The translations under genes were made by a program, and so were the position numbers. A stretch of 40,080 bases of DNA. It comes from Sulfurovum sp. (GTDB lineage: Bacteria > Campylobacterota > Campylobacteria > Campylobacterales > Sulfurovaceae). Location: assembly GCA_024763175.1 (NCBI GenBank), contig JANTGA010000007.1:1-40080 (forward strand). The letters run 5' to 3'. This document shows positions 12,868 to 23,368 of the stretch, piece after piece. Position 1 is the first letter of the stretch, and every line of letters starts with the position of its first letter. The notes beneath the pieces were generated by a model. That model made no database searches. It had not been told where the DNA came from and saw nothing but the letters and a program-made list of their open reading frames with translations.

Positions 12868-13503
12868 ATGAAAAACAATTTTCTAGCGGCACGCACACTA
12901 CTATCTTTGATATTTTTCATATCTTCTCTCAGCGCAGTAGAGGTAAATATCAAAAAAGGTTTGCCTTTTGTGGATGTTGATATCGGCGGCAAGTCAGTTA
13001 GAATCGAGAGGATTCAGGATCTAAACCATAAACTCAAAAATGCATATACCAAAACCTCACGACCCGCTCCTCCGTTTTCAGTACAGCCCTTTCAACCCAT
13101 TGAAGGTATCAAAACGGTGAGCGAACTTGATGTTATTGATTTTATTGCGCAAGATATGAATCGCAGTTCAGGTCTTCTTGTGGATGCAAGAATGCCCAAG
13201 TGGTACCAGGTCGGTACCATCCCCGGAGCTATCAATATTCCTTTCTCTATCTTATCAACAAAAGGCGAAAATCCTTTCATCGGAAAGATATTGGGACTGC
13301 TTGGCGCCAATCATGAATCAGGTAAATGGGATTTTTCCAAGGCACAGAATCTTCTTATTTTTGATAATGGACCATGGTGTCAGCAGGGCGTTCGTGCTAT
13401 GAAAAATCTTATCCGGATGGGATATCCCAAGTCTAAAATAAAATACTATCGGGGGGGGATTCAATTTTGGCAAATCTTGGGCTTAACAACCCTGAAGCCC
13501 TAA
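12868..13503 (+). CDS. Periplasmic rhodanese-like protein, lacking usual loop cysteine (paralog 1)
   Basis: A 211-residue exported protein: signal peptide residues 1-23, a conserved N-terminal segment of about 70 residues shared with the gene at 14929, then a rhodanese domain. The CH2A-type segment is LLVDARMPKWYQVGTIPGAI near 103-122. The active loop reads FDNGPWCQQG (165-174). The residue where a rhodanese cysteine is expected is Asp166, and only Cys171 remains. In the second paralog the corresponding loop is FCNGVWCEQS, and an upstream CPPFC motif is APPFS here. The protein therefore probably does not transfer sulfur in the usual way and may bind or scaffold. The C terminus, RGGIQFWQILGLTT, is conserved between both copies. 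Confidence 0.8.
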   Translation: MKNNFLAARTLLSLIFFISSLSAVEVNIKKGLPFVDVDIGGKSVRIERIQDLNHKLKNAYTKTSRPAPPFSVQPFQPIEGIKTVSELDVIDFIAQDMNRSSGLLVDARMPKWYQVGTIPGAINIPFSILSTKGENPFIGKILGLLGANHESGKWDFSKAQNLLIFDNGPWCQQGVRAMKNLIRMGYPKSKIKYYRGGIQFWQILGLTTLKP

Positions 13504-14928: not shown

Positions 14929-15573
14929 ATGAAAAAACTGCTTATACTCCCTCTCTTTACCTTGCTGCTTTTAGCGAAAAATGAGCAGGTATCTGTAAAA
15001 ATCACAAAAGATATCCCCTATATCACTACTAAAGATTCCGGACAAAAGATCAGGATAGAGAGGATACAGGATACGGACTATCGTCTGACAGATGACTATA
15101 CAAAAACCTCACGTCCCTGTCCACCTTTCTGTATACAGCCAACCCAAGTCGCTCCCGGTATTCAAAATATAGAAGAGATCGAGCTCATAAACTTCATAAA
15201 GACAAAATTACCGGACAAAACCGGTATCGTTGTCGATGCCCGGCTGAAAAGCTGGTTTGAGCTTGAAACGATTCCTTCTGCTATCAACATCCCCTTCACC
15301 ACAGTACAAAATGCTTCTGAAGCAAAAATAGAGAGGATTTTTAAACTATTGGGGATGAAAATAGACAAAGACGGAACTCGGGATTTTTCACATGCCAAAG
15401 ATCTGGCTATCTTCTGCAACGGTGTCTGGTGCGAACAGAGCAAGCACTTCATAGATGCTTTACTCAAGCACAACTATCCAAAAGAAAAACTCTTTTACTA
15501 TAGAAGCGGATTTCAGGGATGGAAACTTCTTGGATTGACTACCGTCGTACACAAAACAATAGAAAAAAAATAA
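14929..15573 (+). CDS. Periplasmic rhodanese-like protein with two cysteine pairs (paralog 2)
   Basis: A 214-residue exported paralog of the protein at 12868. After a short signal peptide (residues 1-16) comes the shared segment (KIRIERIQDTDYRLTDDYTK), then SRPCPPFCIQ with Cys64 and Cys68. The rhodanese domain follows, with VVDARLKSWFELETIPSAIN near 101-120 and active loop FCNGVWCEQS, with Cys163 and Cys168. Cys163 stands at the rhodanese nucleophile position, so persulfide chemistry is possible. A CxxxC plus CxxxxC pattern in a periplasmic protein could also form disulfides or bind metal. It closes the rhodanese-LysM-rhodanese cassette and converges with trmO. Confidence 0.83.
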   Translation: MKKLLILPLFTLLLLAKNEQVSVKITKDIPYITTKDSGQKIRIERIQDTDYRLTDDYTKTSRPCPPFCIQPTQVAPGIQNIEEIELINFIKTKLPDKTGIVVDARLKSWFELETIPSAINIPFTTVQNASEAKIERIFKLLGMKIDKDGTRDFSHAKDLAIFCNGVWCEQSKHFIDALLKHNYPKEKLFYYRSGFQGWKLLGLTTVVHKTIEKK

Positions 15574-15613: not shown

Positions 15614-16108
15614 CTATACTTGCACGAAACGATTGTCCGACTTTTTTTGACAAACCTCTTCGCGCGACGACTTCATCCAGCCTGACCTCACTTCTCCCTC
15701 TACTTTGTCAAAATTTTCAATATAGGGCTTGATATCCAGCAGCGGTGTACCGTCCAGGATATCAACTCCTTTGATGGTGACGACATTCTCCTCTACTGAT
15801 ACCAACTCTACTACCGAAAGTCCCAAGCTGTTGGGGTGCATCGGTGTTCTTGTTGAGAAGACACCACGGGGGGCGTGCGTCCTATCATTGAAAGGAATCA
15901 CACTCATTTTTGGCTCTTTCACCTTATGAAAATAGTAGATCAAATAGACATGTGAAAACCCTTCGAGATCTTGCAATCCATCCTGATACTGCGCATCAAA
16001 CTCTATGGTTGCGAAGAGATCTTTTGCACCTTTGGGCTGGACCGGCATATTGACCAAGTCACAGAAAGGGGAACGGATAGTCGCGATCTGGTCCAGCGAA
16101 AATACCAT
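15614..16108 (-). CDS. trmO: TsaA-like tRNA (m6t6A37) methyltransferase TrmO
   Basis: A TrmO/TsaA-like protein (UPF0066) of about 164 residues that in characterised members N6-methylates t6A37 of threonine tRNA using SAM. Family signatures are IATIRSPFCDLVNMPVQPKG at the start, LEGFSHVYLIYYFHK, the core block THAPRGVFSTRTPMHPNSLG, and VDILDGTPLLDIKPYI. The frame is open to 16150, but family members begin with 'mv.sl..Ia.irSPf', so the ATG at 16108, two bases after the upstream stop codon, is preferred. It is the last gene of the DUF134-NifX-NifX operon, an unexpected companion for a tRNA-modification enzyme. Confidence 0.88.
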   Translation of the reverse strand: MVFSLDQIATIRSPFCDLVNMPVQPKGAKDLFATIEFDAQYQDGLQDLEGFSHVYLIYYFHKVKEPKMSVIPFNDRTHAPRGVFSTRTPMHPNSLGLSVVELVSVEENVVTIKGVDILDGTPLLDIKPYIENFDKVEGEVRSGWMKSSREEVCQKKSDNRFVQV

Positions 16109-16109
16109 A

Positions 16110-16475
16110 TCAATGTGTCGAACAGGTCCCATGGCCACCAAGCAGATCAAGCTTCCCTGCTAGCAAACTGGCAACACTCGCCTCAACAGTCGGTGACGTC
16201 TGGTCCACATAGACATCCAGGCCTGCCCGCGCAAAACCCTCTGCCGGTGAAGCACCGATACCGCCTACCACCAGTGCATCCGGCCTCAGCTCCAGGATAT
16301 TGGTCACAGCATTGCCACAGGCACCTCCGCTGTGTCCTGGGTTGGGGATGCCTTCTACATCCACGATTTTGCCCTCTTCCAGCGTCACGATTGTATAAAA
16401 CTTCGCCTTGCCAAAATGTGCACCTCTTTTACTCAAGTACCCCATATTTTCATCTGTTGGAAAAATCACTCTCAT
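16110..16475 (-). CDS. NifX/NifB-C-like iron-molybdenum cofactor-binding domain protein
   Basis: A 121-residue single-domain protein of the dinitrogenase iron-molybdenum cofactor biosynthesis family (NifX, NafY, C-terminal NifB; MTH1175-like). Typical segments are MRVIFPTDENMGYLSKRGAH at the start, HFGKAKFYTIV, and the glycine-rich centre DALVVGGIGASPAEGFARAG. It has Cys in HSGGACGNAV and in the C-terminal GGHGTCSTH, both near histidines, so metal or Fe-S cofactor binding is plausible. No nitrogenase genes occur nearby, so it probably serves another metallocluster or is a regulator of metal traffic. It follows a second family member with a His-rich tail by 18 bases. Confidence 0.82.
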   Translation of the reverse strand: MRVIFPTDENMGYLSKRGAHFGKAKFYTIVTLEEGKIVDVEGIPNPGHSGGACGNAVTNILELRPDALVVGGIGASPAEGFARAGLDVYVDQTSPTVEASVASLLAGKLDLLGGHGTCSTH

Positions 16476-16493
16476 TGTTTGCTCCTCGTATAT

Positions 16494-16892
16494 TTAGTGC
16501 TGGTGGTGTCCATGTCCTTCACCATGTGAATGGCTTCTCTCATGGTGGGCGATAATCTCCTGCATTTTTGTATCATCTACAGGAGAGAACGTACCATCAT
16601 TGAGTTTTTGCAGGGCATCCTCTACTGTGATACGCTCATCACCGACATGATAGAGCTTGATAGCAGTATGTTTCCTGATAGCCTGATAGGGACTTGCTCC
16701 CATCTGCTGCATGAGGATCGCATCCACACCCTGCTCATCAAGCCAGCCGACGACTGCCTGTCCGCCGCTTGCAGGGTTTTTCTCGATTGTTGTTTTGCCG
16801 TTTTCTACAAAGGCAAACCACTTCGCCTTCCCAAAGAGCGGCGCTACTGCCGGGTTTTCTTGGTTTGTTTTTACCGGTATTGCTATTTTCAT
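16494..16892 (-). CDS. NifX-like cofactor-binding domain protein with His-rich C terminus
   Basis: A 132-residue relative of the preceding NifX-like protein (MKIAIPVKTNQENPAVAPLF, FGKAKWFAFVENGK, DAILMQQMGASPYQAIRKHT). It ends in a histidine-rich tail HHERSHSHGEGHGHHQH that would bind Ni, Zn, Co or similar ions. The ATG at 16892 has an AAAGGA site eight bases upstream; an earlier in-frame start at 16928 would overlap the DUF134 gene's end closely and lacks a site. The tail makes metal storage or delivery more likely than a pure structural role, but no metal can be assigned from sequence alone. Confidence 0.8.
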   Translation of the reverse strand: MKIAIPVKTNQENPAVAPLFGKAKWFAFVENGKTTIEKNPASGGQAVVGWLDEQGVDAILMQQMGASPYQAIRKHTAIKLYHVGDERITVEDALQKLNDGTFSPVDDTKMQEIIAHHERSHSHGEGHGHHQH

Positions 16893-16931
16893 TGTTGTCC
16901 TTTTTGTGTCTGTTTTTCTAGTGTTCATTTT

Positions 16932-17219
16932 TTATCTTTTTTCGATTCTGATAGCTTTTTGATTGAGTAGTGCATCGGCTATCTTTTTTCTGGCAGACTC
17001 GACAACCCTCGAAAAGGTCGTTCTGGATATCCCCATCCGCTCAGCACACTCCTGCTGATACAAAGATTCGAAATCAGCCAATCGTATCGCTTCCATCTCA
17101 TCTTCATAGAGTACCACTCTTTCGAGTCCCTCTCTTCTGATGCCACAGGGCTTGAAGCAGATACTGCTGTGATCCACATCGATATTCCTACTCTTTCTTT
17201 TTCTGCCAAAACCATTCAT
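16932..17219 (-). CDS. DUF134 (UPF0251) helix-turn-helix protein
   Basis: A 95-residue DNA-binding protein of the DUF134 family. Visible features are CFKPCGIRREG near residues 22-32, LYEDEMEAIRLADFESLYQQ, and the sigma-like helix-turn-helix ECAERMGISRTTFSRVVESA followed by ARKKIADALL. The CxxxC motif could sense a metal or redox state. It heads the operon with two NifX-like genes and trmO, and the gap upstream holds two copies of a palindromic 11-mer, so it probably autoregulates. The target regulon is inference. A good AGGAA ribosome site precedes the ATG. Confidence 0.85.
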   Translation of the reverse strand: MNGFGRKRKSRNIDVDHSSICFKPCGIRREGLERVVLYEDEMEAIRLADFESLYQQECAERMGISRTTFSRVVESARKKIADALLNQKAIRIEKR

Positions 17220-17236
17220 TTGCGTTCCTGTCTATA

Positions 17237-17269
17237 GACATATGTTCGTATTGTATCGGACATATGTTC
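17237..17269. promoter_or_regulatory. Tandem palindromic operator upstream of the DUF134 operon
   Basis: GACATATGTTC occurs at 17237-17247 and again at 17259-17269, 22 bases apart (about two helical turns). The core ACATATGT is a perfect palindrome. The copies lie 18 and 40 bases upstream of the DUF134 ATG, where a repressor would block transcription. The remainder of the roughly 310-base gap to mutY is AT-rich up to about 17420, then holds a leader-like short frame and a GC-rich hairpin. Confidence 0.55.
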
Positions 17270-17433
17270 AAATGTCAAGGATTTACAGTATAGTATGAAA
17301 TTATTTTAAAAATCAGATCATTTTATGATAGACAAGATGGATTTCATATGATTTAGCCTGCACTTAAAGATGATTTAAGTTCCAGTAGCTACTATCGGCT
17401 CATCTTATGATACAAAGACAAAAGGAATTGGAA

Positions 17434-19674: not shown

Positions 19675-20910
<1,236 letters not shown>

Positions 20911-20919
20911 AGACAGAGT

Positions 20920-20936
20920 ATTTGGCAGCACCAAAT
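20920..20936 (+). promoter_or_regulatory. Small stem-loop between nifS and nifU
   Basis: ATTTGG/CCAAAT arms around a CAGCA loop lie ten bases after the nifS stop. With no T-run it is unlikely to terminate; it might mark an mRNA processing or stability site that sets the NifS:NifU ratio. Confidence 0.3.
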
Positions 20937-20981
20937 CTACAGAAATAGATGATAATTAAAACAAAGATAAAAGGATAAAAT

Positions 20982-21953
20982 ATGGGAATGGATAGTTTGA
21001 TAGGCGGTACCATCTGGGATGAGTACAGCCAAAAAGTCACAGATTTGATGAATAACCCCAAAAATATGGGAGAGATTACAGAAGATCAGGCCAAAACGAT
21101 GGGTGCCAAGCTGATCGTCGCCGACTTCGGTGCAGAGAGCTGCGGTGATGCTGTAAGGCTCTACTGGGCCGTAGATCCCAAAACAGACAGGATTTTGGAA
21201 TCCAAGTTCAAAAGCTTCGGCTGCGGTACAGCGATCGCCAGTTCAGATACCATGGCAGAGCTTTGTCGGGGAAAAACCGTCGATGAAGCGGTCAAGATCA
21301 CCAATATCGATGTTGAGCATGCGATGCGGGACAATCCCGATACGCCGGCTGTACCGCCTCAAAAGATGCACTGCTCAGTTATGGCATATGATGTTATCAA
21401 AAAAGCAGCAGCACAATACAAGGGCGTCGATATAGAGAGTTTCGAACAAGAATTCATCGTATGTGAATGTGCTCGTGTCTCCCTATCGACACTGAGAGAA
21501 GTAATCCGGCTCAATGAATTGACGACGGTAGAGCAGATCACTGATTATACCAAAGCAGGGGCTTTCTGCAAATCCTGTATCCGACCCGGCGGCCATGAAG
21601 AGAAAGATATCTATCTCGTCGATCTGCTCGAAGAGTATGAAAAAGAGAAGATATCCAAAGCTGCAGATGCTTCAGCAAGTGGTGCTGATGCTTCATTCGC
21701 TGAGATGACACTGGTACAGAAGATCAAAGCGGTCGATAAAGTCGTCGATGACAATATCCGACAAATGCTGGTCATGGATGGTGGTGACATGGAGATCCTC
21801 GACATCAAAGAGAACGGTGTCAACATCGATATCTATATCCGATACCTCGGTGCCTGCAGCGGCTGTGCCAGCTCTGCCACCGGTACTCTCTTCGCCATCG
21901 AAAATATCCTCAAAGAGAAGCTCGATCAAAATATCAGAGTCCTGCCTATCTAA
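20982..21953 (+). CDS. nifU: Fe-S cluster assembly scaffold NifU (three domains)
   Basis: A full-length 323-residue NifU. The N-terminal IscU-like domain shows three cysteines (ESCGDAVRL, FGCGTAIASS, MHCSVMAYD). A central [2Fe-2S] BFD-like domain has CECARVSLSTL and AFCKSCIRPG. After an Ala/Ser-rich linker near residue 225, the C-terminal NifU domain carries the CSGCASS cluster motif. It accepts sulfur from NifS and holds clusters for delivery. It follows nifS in the same direction and has its own AAAGGA site. Mrp, a possible cluster carrier, lies 329 bases downstream. Confidence 0.96.
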   Translation: MGMDSLIGGTIWDEYSQKVTDLMNNPKNMGEITEDQAKTMGAKLIVADFGAESCGDAVRLYWAVDPKTDRILESKFKSFGCGTAIASSDTMAELCRGKTVDEAVKITNIDVEHAMRDNPDTPAVPPQKMHCSVMAYDVIKKAAAQYKGVDIESFEQEFIVCECARVSLSTLREVIRLNELTTVEQITDYTKAGAFCKSCIRPGGHEEKDIYLVDLLEEYEKEKISKAADASASGADASFAEMTLVQKIKAVDKVVDDNIRQMLVMDGGDMEILDIKENGVNIDIYIRYLGACSGCASSATGTLFAIENILKEKLDQNIRVLPI

Positions 21954-21980
21954 GCTCTCCTCTTCTTGACACTACATACA

Positions 21981-22170
21981 TTCCCAAGCTGAAGCTTGGG
22001 AAAAGAGTGGAATCATCCATATTTGCCAAAATTATACAAAAACCACACTCTCTGAAACTTGGAAATAAGGAAAAGTACTGAGCTTGGGACACTCGAACTT
22101 GTTCGAGTCTGAAAAGATCCAAAACACTCTTGTATGGCATTGTCGTTCTCAAGCTCCAGCCTGGAGACAA
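21981..22170. repeat. Cluster of REP-like palindromes
   Basis: The 329-base gap between nifU and mrp contains three palindromes: TTCCCAAGCT/AGCTTGGGAA with two-base centre (21981-22002), ACTCGAAC/GTTCGAGT (22091-22108) and CTCCAG/CTGGAG with flanking TTGTC/GACAA (22140-22170). AGCTTGGGA also recurs at 22081-22089. These resemble the AAGCTTGGGAA-type REP elements found dispersed in many bacteria and mobilised by RAYT transposases. No transposase is present here. The rest of the gap, up to 22282, is AT-rich and holds a CATAAT promoter-like hexamer at 22239-22244 for mrp. Confidence 0.5.
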
Positions 22171-22282
22171 CTATTGGAAGAAACAAGGCAATGATAATAA
22201 AAAACTTTTTTACACTAAAGATTCTTGCTTATCTATGGCATAATCATACTAAAATAATAAAACAATTCAAAGGTTTCTAAAT

Positions 22283-23368
22283 ATGATAGATAAAAGCAGT
22301 ATTGAAAATATTCTGGCAAAGGTAATCTACCCAGGCTTTACGAAAGATATCGTAACATTTGGCTTTGTCAAGGAGATTGCAGTTGAGGATGGTGCCCTGT
22401 TGGTTCACCTGGACATTCCCTCTACCGCAGCAGAGATAGAGAGCCAGCTTCGAGAAGAGATCACCAAAAGACTCTCCGTACTGGGAGCATCTAAAATCGA
22501 TCTCACTATCGACAAACCCAGAATACCCAGAGAGACCAGTTCTCACGGTAAAAATCTACTACCAAAGATCCAAAACTTTGTGATGGTCAGCAGCGGTAAG
22601 GGTGGTGTAGGCAAATCGACTACGACTGTCAATATTGCGATAGCTCTCGCTCAACAGGGCAAGAGAGTAGGGCTGCTCGATGCAGATATTTATGGGCCAA
22701 ACATCCCCAGAATGATGGGGATAGAGGGCCAACAGCCTGTATTTTTGGGAAAAACCATCAAACCGATCCTGGCACACCATCTCAAAGTCATGTCCATAGG
22801 ATCACTGATAGAGAGAGGTGCCTCTCTCATCTGGAAAGGGGCAATGGTCACTCAGGCGATCGAGCAGATGCTCGAAGATATCGAATGGGGCAGCCTTGAT
22901 GTCTTGCTCTTCGATATGCCTCCAGGCACAGGAGATGCGCAACTGGCCCTGGCACAGAGTTTGCCGGTCACAGCAGGGGTTTGTGTCACGACTCCTCAGA
23001 AAGTCGCTCTGGATGATACGATACGCAGTATGGATATGTTTACCCAGCTTCATATCCCTATCGCCGGCCTCGTCGAAAATATGAGCGGTTTCATCTGCCC
23101 GGAGACAGGCAAGGAGTATGATATCTTCGGCAAGGGCACGACGCAGCCTCTGGCAGATGCTTATGATACAGTCGTTCTGGGGGATATCCCTATCGAACCG
23201 GCTATCCGGGAGGGAGGAGACAGTGGTCTGCCCATCACAGTCATCGCGCCCAGCTGTGAAACATCAAAACGCTATCAAGCGATCGCCTCTACGCTCTGGG
23301 ACACGTTGCAAAAAGTCAATGAAGAGGGTGGAGTCGATAATGAGGCGATACAGCCTACGATTTTTTAG
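22283..23368 (+). CDS. mrp: Mrp/ApbC-family P-loop ATPase
   Basis: A 361-residue ATPase of the Mrp/NBP35 group, thought to carry Fe-S clusters. A DUF59 (MIP18-like) domain occupies residues 1-80. The deviant Walker A is SSGKGGVGKSTTT (103-115), with LLDADIYGPNIPRMMG and FDMPPGTGDAQL as further signatures. The usual CxxC motif near residue 272, involved in cluster binding in other members, is incomplete: ICPETG has Cys272, but position 275 is threonine. Location beside nifS/nifU agrees with a role in Fe-S metabolism. Confidence 0.93.
   Translation: MIDKSSIENILAKVIYPGFTKDIVTFGFVKEIAVEDGALLVHLDIPSTAAEIESQLREEITKRLSVLGASKIDLTIDKPRIPRETSSHGKNLLPKIQNFVMVSSGKGGVGKSTTTVNIAIALAQQGKRVGLLDADIYGPNIPRMMGIEGQQPVFLGKTIKPILAHHLKVMSIGSLIERGASLIWKGAMVTQAIEQMLEDIEWGSLDVLLFDMPPGTGDAQLALAQSLPVTAGVCVTTPQKVALDDTIRSMDMFTQLHIPIAGLVENMSGFICPETGKEYDIFGKGTTQPLADAYDTVVLGDIPIEPAIREGGDSGLPITVIAPSCETSKRYQAIASTLWDTLQKVNEEGGVDNEAIQPTIF

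Follow-up and report, generated by a model that had tools for sequence, protein, structure and literature searches.

The window analysed here, a stretch of 40,080 nucleotides from a Sulfurovum sp., carries a putative operon (Table 1) that is headed by a gene for a DUF134 (UPF0251) protein and continues with genes for two NifX-like proteins and for a TrmO/TsaA tRNA methyltransferase, the latter overlapping the end of NifX-like gene 2. A preliminary description of this DNA had recognised DUF134 as the head of an operon with two NifX-like genes, an assignment which Pfam supports, and had pointed out a His-rich tail on one of the two proteins, which is indeed present in the sequence, but it drew the operon too short by omitting the TrmO gene. 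The assignments are based on (i) the score of the DUF134 protein against PF02001, for which the cut-off is 27 bits and which covers profile positions 4–90 of 98, (ii) scores of 44.3 and 49.5 bits for the NifX-like proteins against PF02579 (cut-off 26.3), and (iii) a score of 122.2 bits for TrmO, of which a single copy was found in the window's genome, against the TIGR00104 equivalog model (cut-off 93.25). The DUF134 protein scores below the equivalog cut-off of NF003257 (PRK04217; 64.7 vs 115 bits). Beside the operon, two rhodanese-domain proteins (12868–13503 and 14929–15573) that by eye look exported and alike flank a LysM-like protein (also assigned by eye), and the opposite strand encodes, at 19675–23368 and thus 2.4–6.1 kb from the DUF134 promoter, a NifS-family cysteine desulfurase, NifU and an Mrp/ApbC-type Fe-S carrier.

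Table 1. Features of the putative DUF134 operon and of its promoter region (positions in the window).
Feature	Position	Strand	Basis or remark
-35 hexamer TTGACA, operon promoter	17273..17278	-	promoter match 11/12, 17-nt spacer
Candidate operator O1 (GAACATATGTC on - strand)	17259..17269	.	within -35/-10 spacer
-10 hexamer TACAAT	17250..17255	-	sigma-70 type, 11/12 consensus matches
Candidate operator O2 (GAACATATGTC on - strand)	17237..17247	.	directly after -10, over expected transcription start
DUF134 protein, 95 aa, predicted sigma-region-4-like helix-turn-helix	16932..17219	-	PF02001 77.3 bits; AlphaFold2 model
CFKPC motif, residues 21-25 of DUF134 protein	17145..17159	-	sequence; low-confidence part of model
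SRTTFSR, start of putative recognition helix, residues 65-71	17007..17027	-	model; correlation with operator
NifX-like protein 1 (PF02579), 132 aa	16494..16892	-	Pfam
His-rich tail of NifX-like protein 1, HHERSHSHGEGHGHHQH	16497..16547	-	sequence
NifX-like protein 2 (PF02579), 121 aa	16110..16475	-	Pfam
TrmO/TsaA tRNA methyltransferase (TrmO_N), last gene of putative operon	15614..16132	-	PF01980; TIGR00104

The usual annotation of DUF134/UPF0251 already implies DNA binding. The window protein belongs to this same family (PF02001), and its similarity to sigma region 4, detected both by HMM and by fold comparison, likewise implies DNA binding. The AlphaFold2 model (pLDDT 85.7) exhibits helices at residues 39–50, 55–62 and 66–85, and a Foldseek search with it ranked sigma region 4 folds first, with none at E ≤ 0.001; a sequence search found no solved DUF134 structure. 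Since the model is weak over residues 1–30, it is silent on the cysteines located there. Under the family's names, the accessible parts of the literature contained no operator, regulon or function, and in the portion of PMC5886521 available to us the family is named in a line of a table. PMC10434189, PMC8346489 and PMC7970244 were rejected as sources on DUF134, their accessible text concerning DUF1349 or DUF1345. Likewise, the excerpts available from the literature on NifX regulators and on the plasmid island described below held nothing on DUF134.

Upstream of the DUF134 gene, GACATATGTTC occurs twice on the + strand, at the positions of O1 and O2 and with its palindromic cores ACATATGT at 17238–17245 and 17260–17267. 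Direct reading places the two copies 22 bp apart, so that the coordinates bear out the double palindrome, two helical turns apart, of the preliminary description. Within the window, the pair accounts for both exact occurrences of ACATATGT; with one mismatch allowed, 16 matches are found vs 15.9 expected, and the single 8-mer is thus not rare, whereas the exact pair is. The two copies are set into a near-consensus sigma-70 promoter (TTGACA-17-TACAAT), the remaining promoter-like matches between 17100 and 17500 scoring 9/12. The candidate operator, which is also conserved along with the gene (see below), overlaps the promoter core, as would be expected of an autorepressor.

Among 199 genomes of the Campylobacterales, DUF134 was found in 59, at 69 places of which 68 are usable (L082, truncated by the end of its contig, yielded no DUF134 and is not counted). 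An exact ACATATGT is present between -260 and +60 at 55 of the 68 loci, compared with 0.60% of 11,392 control windows taken from these same loci, and two sites within one mismatch are found in this interval at 52 loci (controls, 0.63%); the exact site is absent from it at 13 loci, including L020, which is without any site. The palindrome is thus kept upstream of DUF134 homologues, which is the test that the preliminary description had itself set for its proposal. The distances between sites fall mainly into two classes of 22–23 and 30–34 bp. The strict pattern ACATATGT-N10-18-ACATATGT occurs in 7 of the 199 genomes and is located directly upstream of a DUF134 gene in 6 of those 7. An independent scan of these genomes for a relaxed spaced pair hit 67 places, and at 40 of these a DUF134 start was no more than 1.5 kb away.

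The promoter register was analysed at the standalone DUF134 loci, 31/32 of which have a site that in each of the 31 cases lies within the best sigma-70 match, the latter agreeing with the consensus at 11–12 of 12 positions in 30/31. Measured from the first nucleotide of the -35 hexamer, O1 begins at a distance of either 3 nt (16 loci) or 11–12 nt (15 loci) and O2, where present, mostly at 33–45 nt; at the 16 loci of the first kind O1 shares bases with TTGACA, so that operator and promoter can not be counted there as independent features. Ten loci of Campylobacterota in which DUF134 is internal in a run of genes, and which have no site within -300, were inspected in addition (gene calls in these relatives are mechanical): the pair precedes the first gene of the run at four of them (L102, L103, L104 and L109), a single variant was found at one, and no site was found at five within the 4 kb searched.

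This register bears on two alternative explanations. If the repeats were a transcript structure or a plain promoter element rather than a protein site, overlap of O1 with the -35 hexamer in one register would be accounted for, but the near-helical spacings of 22–23 and 30–34 bp recur in both registers, the position of the sites is tied to the promoter and not to the start of the reading frame, O1 is located upstream of the expected transcript, and the change from ACATATGT to GCATATGC described below keeps the palindrome, so that we regard this reading as very improbable. Alternatively, DUF134 might be an activator, or a stand-alone sigma region 4 aiding RNA polymerase, as its fold, its HMM similarity and the overlap of O1 with -35 at 16 loci could be taken to indicate. 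Such a role is nonetheless unlikely, given promoters that are near consensus unaided and an O2 at the transcription start, where bound protein would block transcription.

What comparison of the genomes shows is a conserved candidate operator that is linked to DUF134 and keeps its register with the promoter. From this register we infer repression rather than activation; we also infer direct binding by DUF134, with a dimer on each palindrome. We thus consider it likely that DUF134 is a helix-turn-helix autorepressor of NifX-type metal-sulfur operons that acts via CATATG palindromes. In such a mechanism, the protein would occupy a CATATG-centred palindrome between or at the -35 and -10 elements of the near-consensus promoter as well as a second one at the transcription start, and would thereby shut off its own gene together with its NifX-type metal-sulfur-binding partners and, in the window, TrmO.

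A further alternative is that another, host-wide regulator binds the palindromes and that DUF134 is merely among its targets. An 8-mer is short, and the window's genome contains 13 exact copies of ACATATGT, which do not exceed the 14 obtained for the reversed control, so that a broad regulon in this genome was rejected as a candidate. The same regulator would, however, have to explain why spaced pairs track DUF134 and drop to background level in genomes devoid of it (13 pairs, vs 16 for the reversed control pattern over all 199 genomes), why the linkage is common to Campylobacterota, Gammaproteobacteria, Bacillota and mobile plasmids, and why the outer base of the operator changes with the recognition helix of DUF134. 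Hence, a host-wide regulator appears improbable.

The phylogenetic breadth of the linkage emerged from 80 named DUF134 loci, a set that overlaps with that of the 199 genomes (e.g., the contigs of L111 and L112 occur in both), so that counts from the two sets must not be added. With loci matched at a contig start excluded, RCATATGY is present between -150 and +20 at 36/51 loci of Campylobacterota (background 0.019 per window), at 8/9 of Chromatiaceae and Competibacter (0.002 per window) and at 10/17 of other groups (0.006 per window), in the latter mainly as GCATATGC. Chromatiaceae, deltaproteobacteria, Bacillota and plasmids of Enterobacteriaceae all provide examples of CATATG-centred palindromes at DUF134 genes. 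Plasmid records with DUF134 number 185, mostly from Klebsiella and Citrobacter; no match was obtained in phages. Three of four plasmids read from Klebsiella, Citrobacter and E. coli have two GCATATGC sites 29–30 bp apart before a DUF134–NifX pair, and the fourth combines an exact with a variant site. Two such sites are 23 bp apart in Morganella, and Roseburia and Selenomonas exhibit sites of the TTGACATATGTCAA type, the Selenomonas plasmid having a further site 66 bp before an Mrp/NBP35 gene.

The variants of the operator pair with variants of the putative recognition helix. Of 16 loci with SRQT, 12 have a symmetric site, which is GCATATGC in 12/12, and of 135 loci with SR[TSPA]T, 100 have one, which is ACATATGT in 98/100, L147, L208 and L209 being outside this count because their helices did not match the expression. 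This pairing supports a direct reading of the site by DUF134, but the tree accounts for it by about two changes of the operator and, with p = 1 in a test of independent pairs, it was rejected as statistical proof.

Two of the 13 exact sites in the window's genome are the pair itself, one on contig C59 is promoter-like, one on contig C60 follows a gene where nothing promoter-like was recognised, and nine are apparently coding. For the C59 and C60 sites the script's 'inside ORF' label was overruled on reading the sequence, and the site on C91 was assigned to coding sequence of the strand opposite to the reading frame that the script had given. From the C59 site (C59:11209) it is ∼45 nt to a downstream reading frame rich in Gly and Arg, after which another NifX-like gene begins and the contig ends; SLAC1 is located on the other side of the site. 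The Gly/Arg-rich protein and this NifX-like gene are probably a trans target of DUF134 in the window's genome. Comparable arrangements were seen in two relatives: in genome G088 a NifX gene, whose contig is not the one with DUF134, has a promoter-like pair in front of it, and so has a DUF4405 gene in genome G075. A 28-bp palindrome, ACATATGTAAGGGTTCCCTTACATATGT, which is situated between genes and not at a DUF134 locus (G078:C1:438433; L202), was also noted and is perhaps a terminator or the site of another protein.

The preliminary description had proposed a metal- or cluster-responsive, self-regulated operon in which DUF134, a protein with CFKPC, binds ACATATGT. Self-regulation at this site is strongly supported by the conservation, register and linkage of the predicted operator; for a response to metals or clusters the evidence of gene content is circumstantial, and CFKPC can not be upheld as a metal site of the family: it is found in 88/101 short DUF134 proteins without a Cys tail, in 3/36 long ones and in 0/10 with a Cys tail (two overlapping sets pooled, relatedness ignored, loci matched at a contig start excluded). 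Nearly all of its occurrences are in short DUF134 proteins from Campylobacterota and Chromatiaceae, and it is missing from most other phyla sampled.

The company that DUF134 keeps points to metal-sulfur chemistry. In the 80 named loci the neighbours include NifX-like proteins (44), TrmO (14, in all 14 cases on the same strand), NifU (14), MBL-fold proteins (8) and SLAC1 (7); these are sequence clusters with one member each named by Pfam, or by the window proteins in the case of NifX and TrmO, and relatedness is ignored in the counts. TrmO on the strand of DUF134 recurs in Campylobacterota, Omnitrophota and deltaproteobacteria (including L160, L168 and L169). On plasmids, the neighbours comprise Dps, TauE, DUF6691 and Sulf_transp as well as a BigR-like ArsR protein and a CoA-disulfide reductase with a rhodanese domain, both of which score below their NCBIfam equivalog cut-offs. 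A metal-sulfur or sulfide-linked DUF134 regulon is thus plausible. Sulfide in particular is not indicated by those neighbours that encode MFS, cytochrome c, NifU, MBL and Dps proteins, and the signal is further blurred by the higher frequency of nifD in genomes with DUF134 (see below).

NifX-like partners also raise the question of whether the operon serves nitrogenase cofactor assembly. The earlier statement that no nitrogenase is near holds within the window but not for the genome (G000), which carries nifD above the cut-off on contig C31 and is the genome of a probable nitrogen fixer. Moreover, nifD is more frequent in genomes with DUF134 (23/59 vs 23/140; Fisher p ∼0.0009, relatedness ignored). 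Still, 36 of the 59 genomes with DUF134 have no nifD above the cut-off, on which ground nitrogenase regulation was rejected, contigs C28, C31 and C133 are devoid of exact operator sites (13 in the genome), the window's NifX-like proteins match neither NifX nor NafY in NCBIfam at E 0.01 and only part of MrpORP, below its cut-off, and the plasmid copies are without nif genes in the stretches read. A role in nitrogenase assembly is hence distinctly improbable. Other nif-type genes of the window's genome, assigned by eye as NifN-like, NifV-like and ferredoxins, lie on contigs other than C31, the contigs noted for nif-type genes being C28, C31 and C133 (L220, L221 and L222).

Several known systems invite comparison. 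BigR/SqrR-type ArsR persulfide repressors control sulfide-detoxification genes, and a BigR-like gene shares a plasmid island with DUF134–NifX, but the two families are unrelated and DUF134 is not an ArsR protein. The ORP/MrpORP systems of Desulfovibrio resemble DUF134 loci in that NifX-type proteins are clustered with MinD/Mrp-type P-loop ATPases that carry ferredoxin motifs, an ATPase cluster that adjoins DUF134 in 21 of the 80 named loci (one member checked by Pfam). MrpORP carries Fe-S clusters, and the orp operons of Desulfovibrio are under the control of sigma-54 promoters, according to the accessible part of PMC6345978, while the window operon has DUF134 and a sigma-70 promoter. No Orp3/Orp4-type MinD ATPase (two 4Fe-4S motifs) was found in the window operon, which thus does not belong to the ORP systems, and the window's genome (82% complete) yielded three weak partial matches (best E 1.4e-4). 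In known cases, PF02579 proteins are binders or carriers of metal-sulfur clusters. As described in the part of PMC5524996 available to us, the ligands of NifB, NifX and NafY are complex Fe-S clusters, and a NifX-family protein of Pyrococcus furiosus with a NifB/NifX-family domain, IssA, is sulfur-responsive and stores thioferrate. The likeness to IssA consists in this domain and in the pairing of a Gly/Arg-rich protein with a NifX-like gene at the probable trans target on C59; the window's NifX-like protein differs by its His-rich tail, and sulfur-responsive expression is a property of IssA.

About half of the DUF134 loci in the order encode a protein with a C-terminal extension (referred to as 'long' or 'fused' if exceeding 180 residues). 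At 26/32 long DUF134 loci a divergent gene within 1.5 kb encodes NifX (16/32), cydA (11/32) or SLAC1 (3/32); at L063, CydA, CydB and DUF4492 were identified by Pfam. Five of seven long proteins scanned match PF02579 C-terminally at E < 0.001, two of them above the cut-off, and since the other two have no such match, 'fused NifX' is not established for all. According to the accessible part of PMC4815019, bd oxidases allow E. coli to respire in sulfide. The link between cydAB and a regulator with a NifX-type domain hints at a way in which respiration might be coupled to metal-sulfur status in some sulfur bacteria.

Our guess at the inducing signal derives from the gene neighbours. Tentatively, and with somewhat more doubt than confidence, we propose sulfide, a metal-sulfide or an iron-sulfur species, which would be sensed via a NifX-type domain, located either in the partner protein or in the C-terminal extension of DUF134, and/or via the N-terminal cysteines. 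It is tempting to speculate further, on yet less secure ground, that DUF134 might be a cross-phylum regulator of sulfide or metal-sulfide stress with a NifX-type sensor, one which would switch on metal-sulfur carriers, anion/sulfite exporters and, in many Campylobacterota, a sulfide-resistant bd oxidase, and which conjugative plasmids would have carried into Enterobacteriaceae. Since DUF134 is widespread and has been given no function in those parts of the literature that we could consult, it is of importance that a defined candidate operator, a promoter register and a set of putative targets render it directly testable, and the plasmid copies offer a simple bench system in laboratory E. coli.

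The E. coli plasmid block is present in 22 of 5426 E. coli genomes. On plasmids of Enterobacteriaceae (L205, 5995–11125; L210; L207), the DUF134–NifX pair forms part of a sulfur/stress island together with PaaI, Dps, the BigR-like ArsR protein, the CoA-disulfide reductase with rhodanese domain and PEMT, and the NifX protein of this island has a Cys/His-rich tail.
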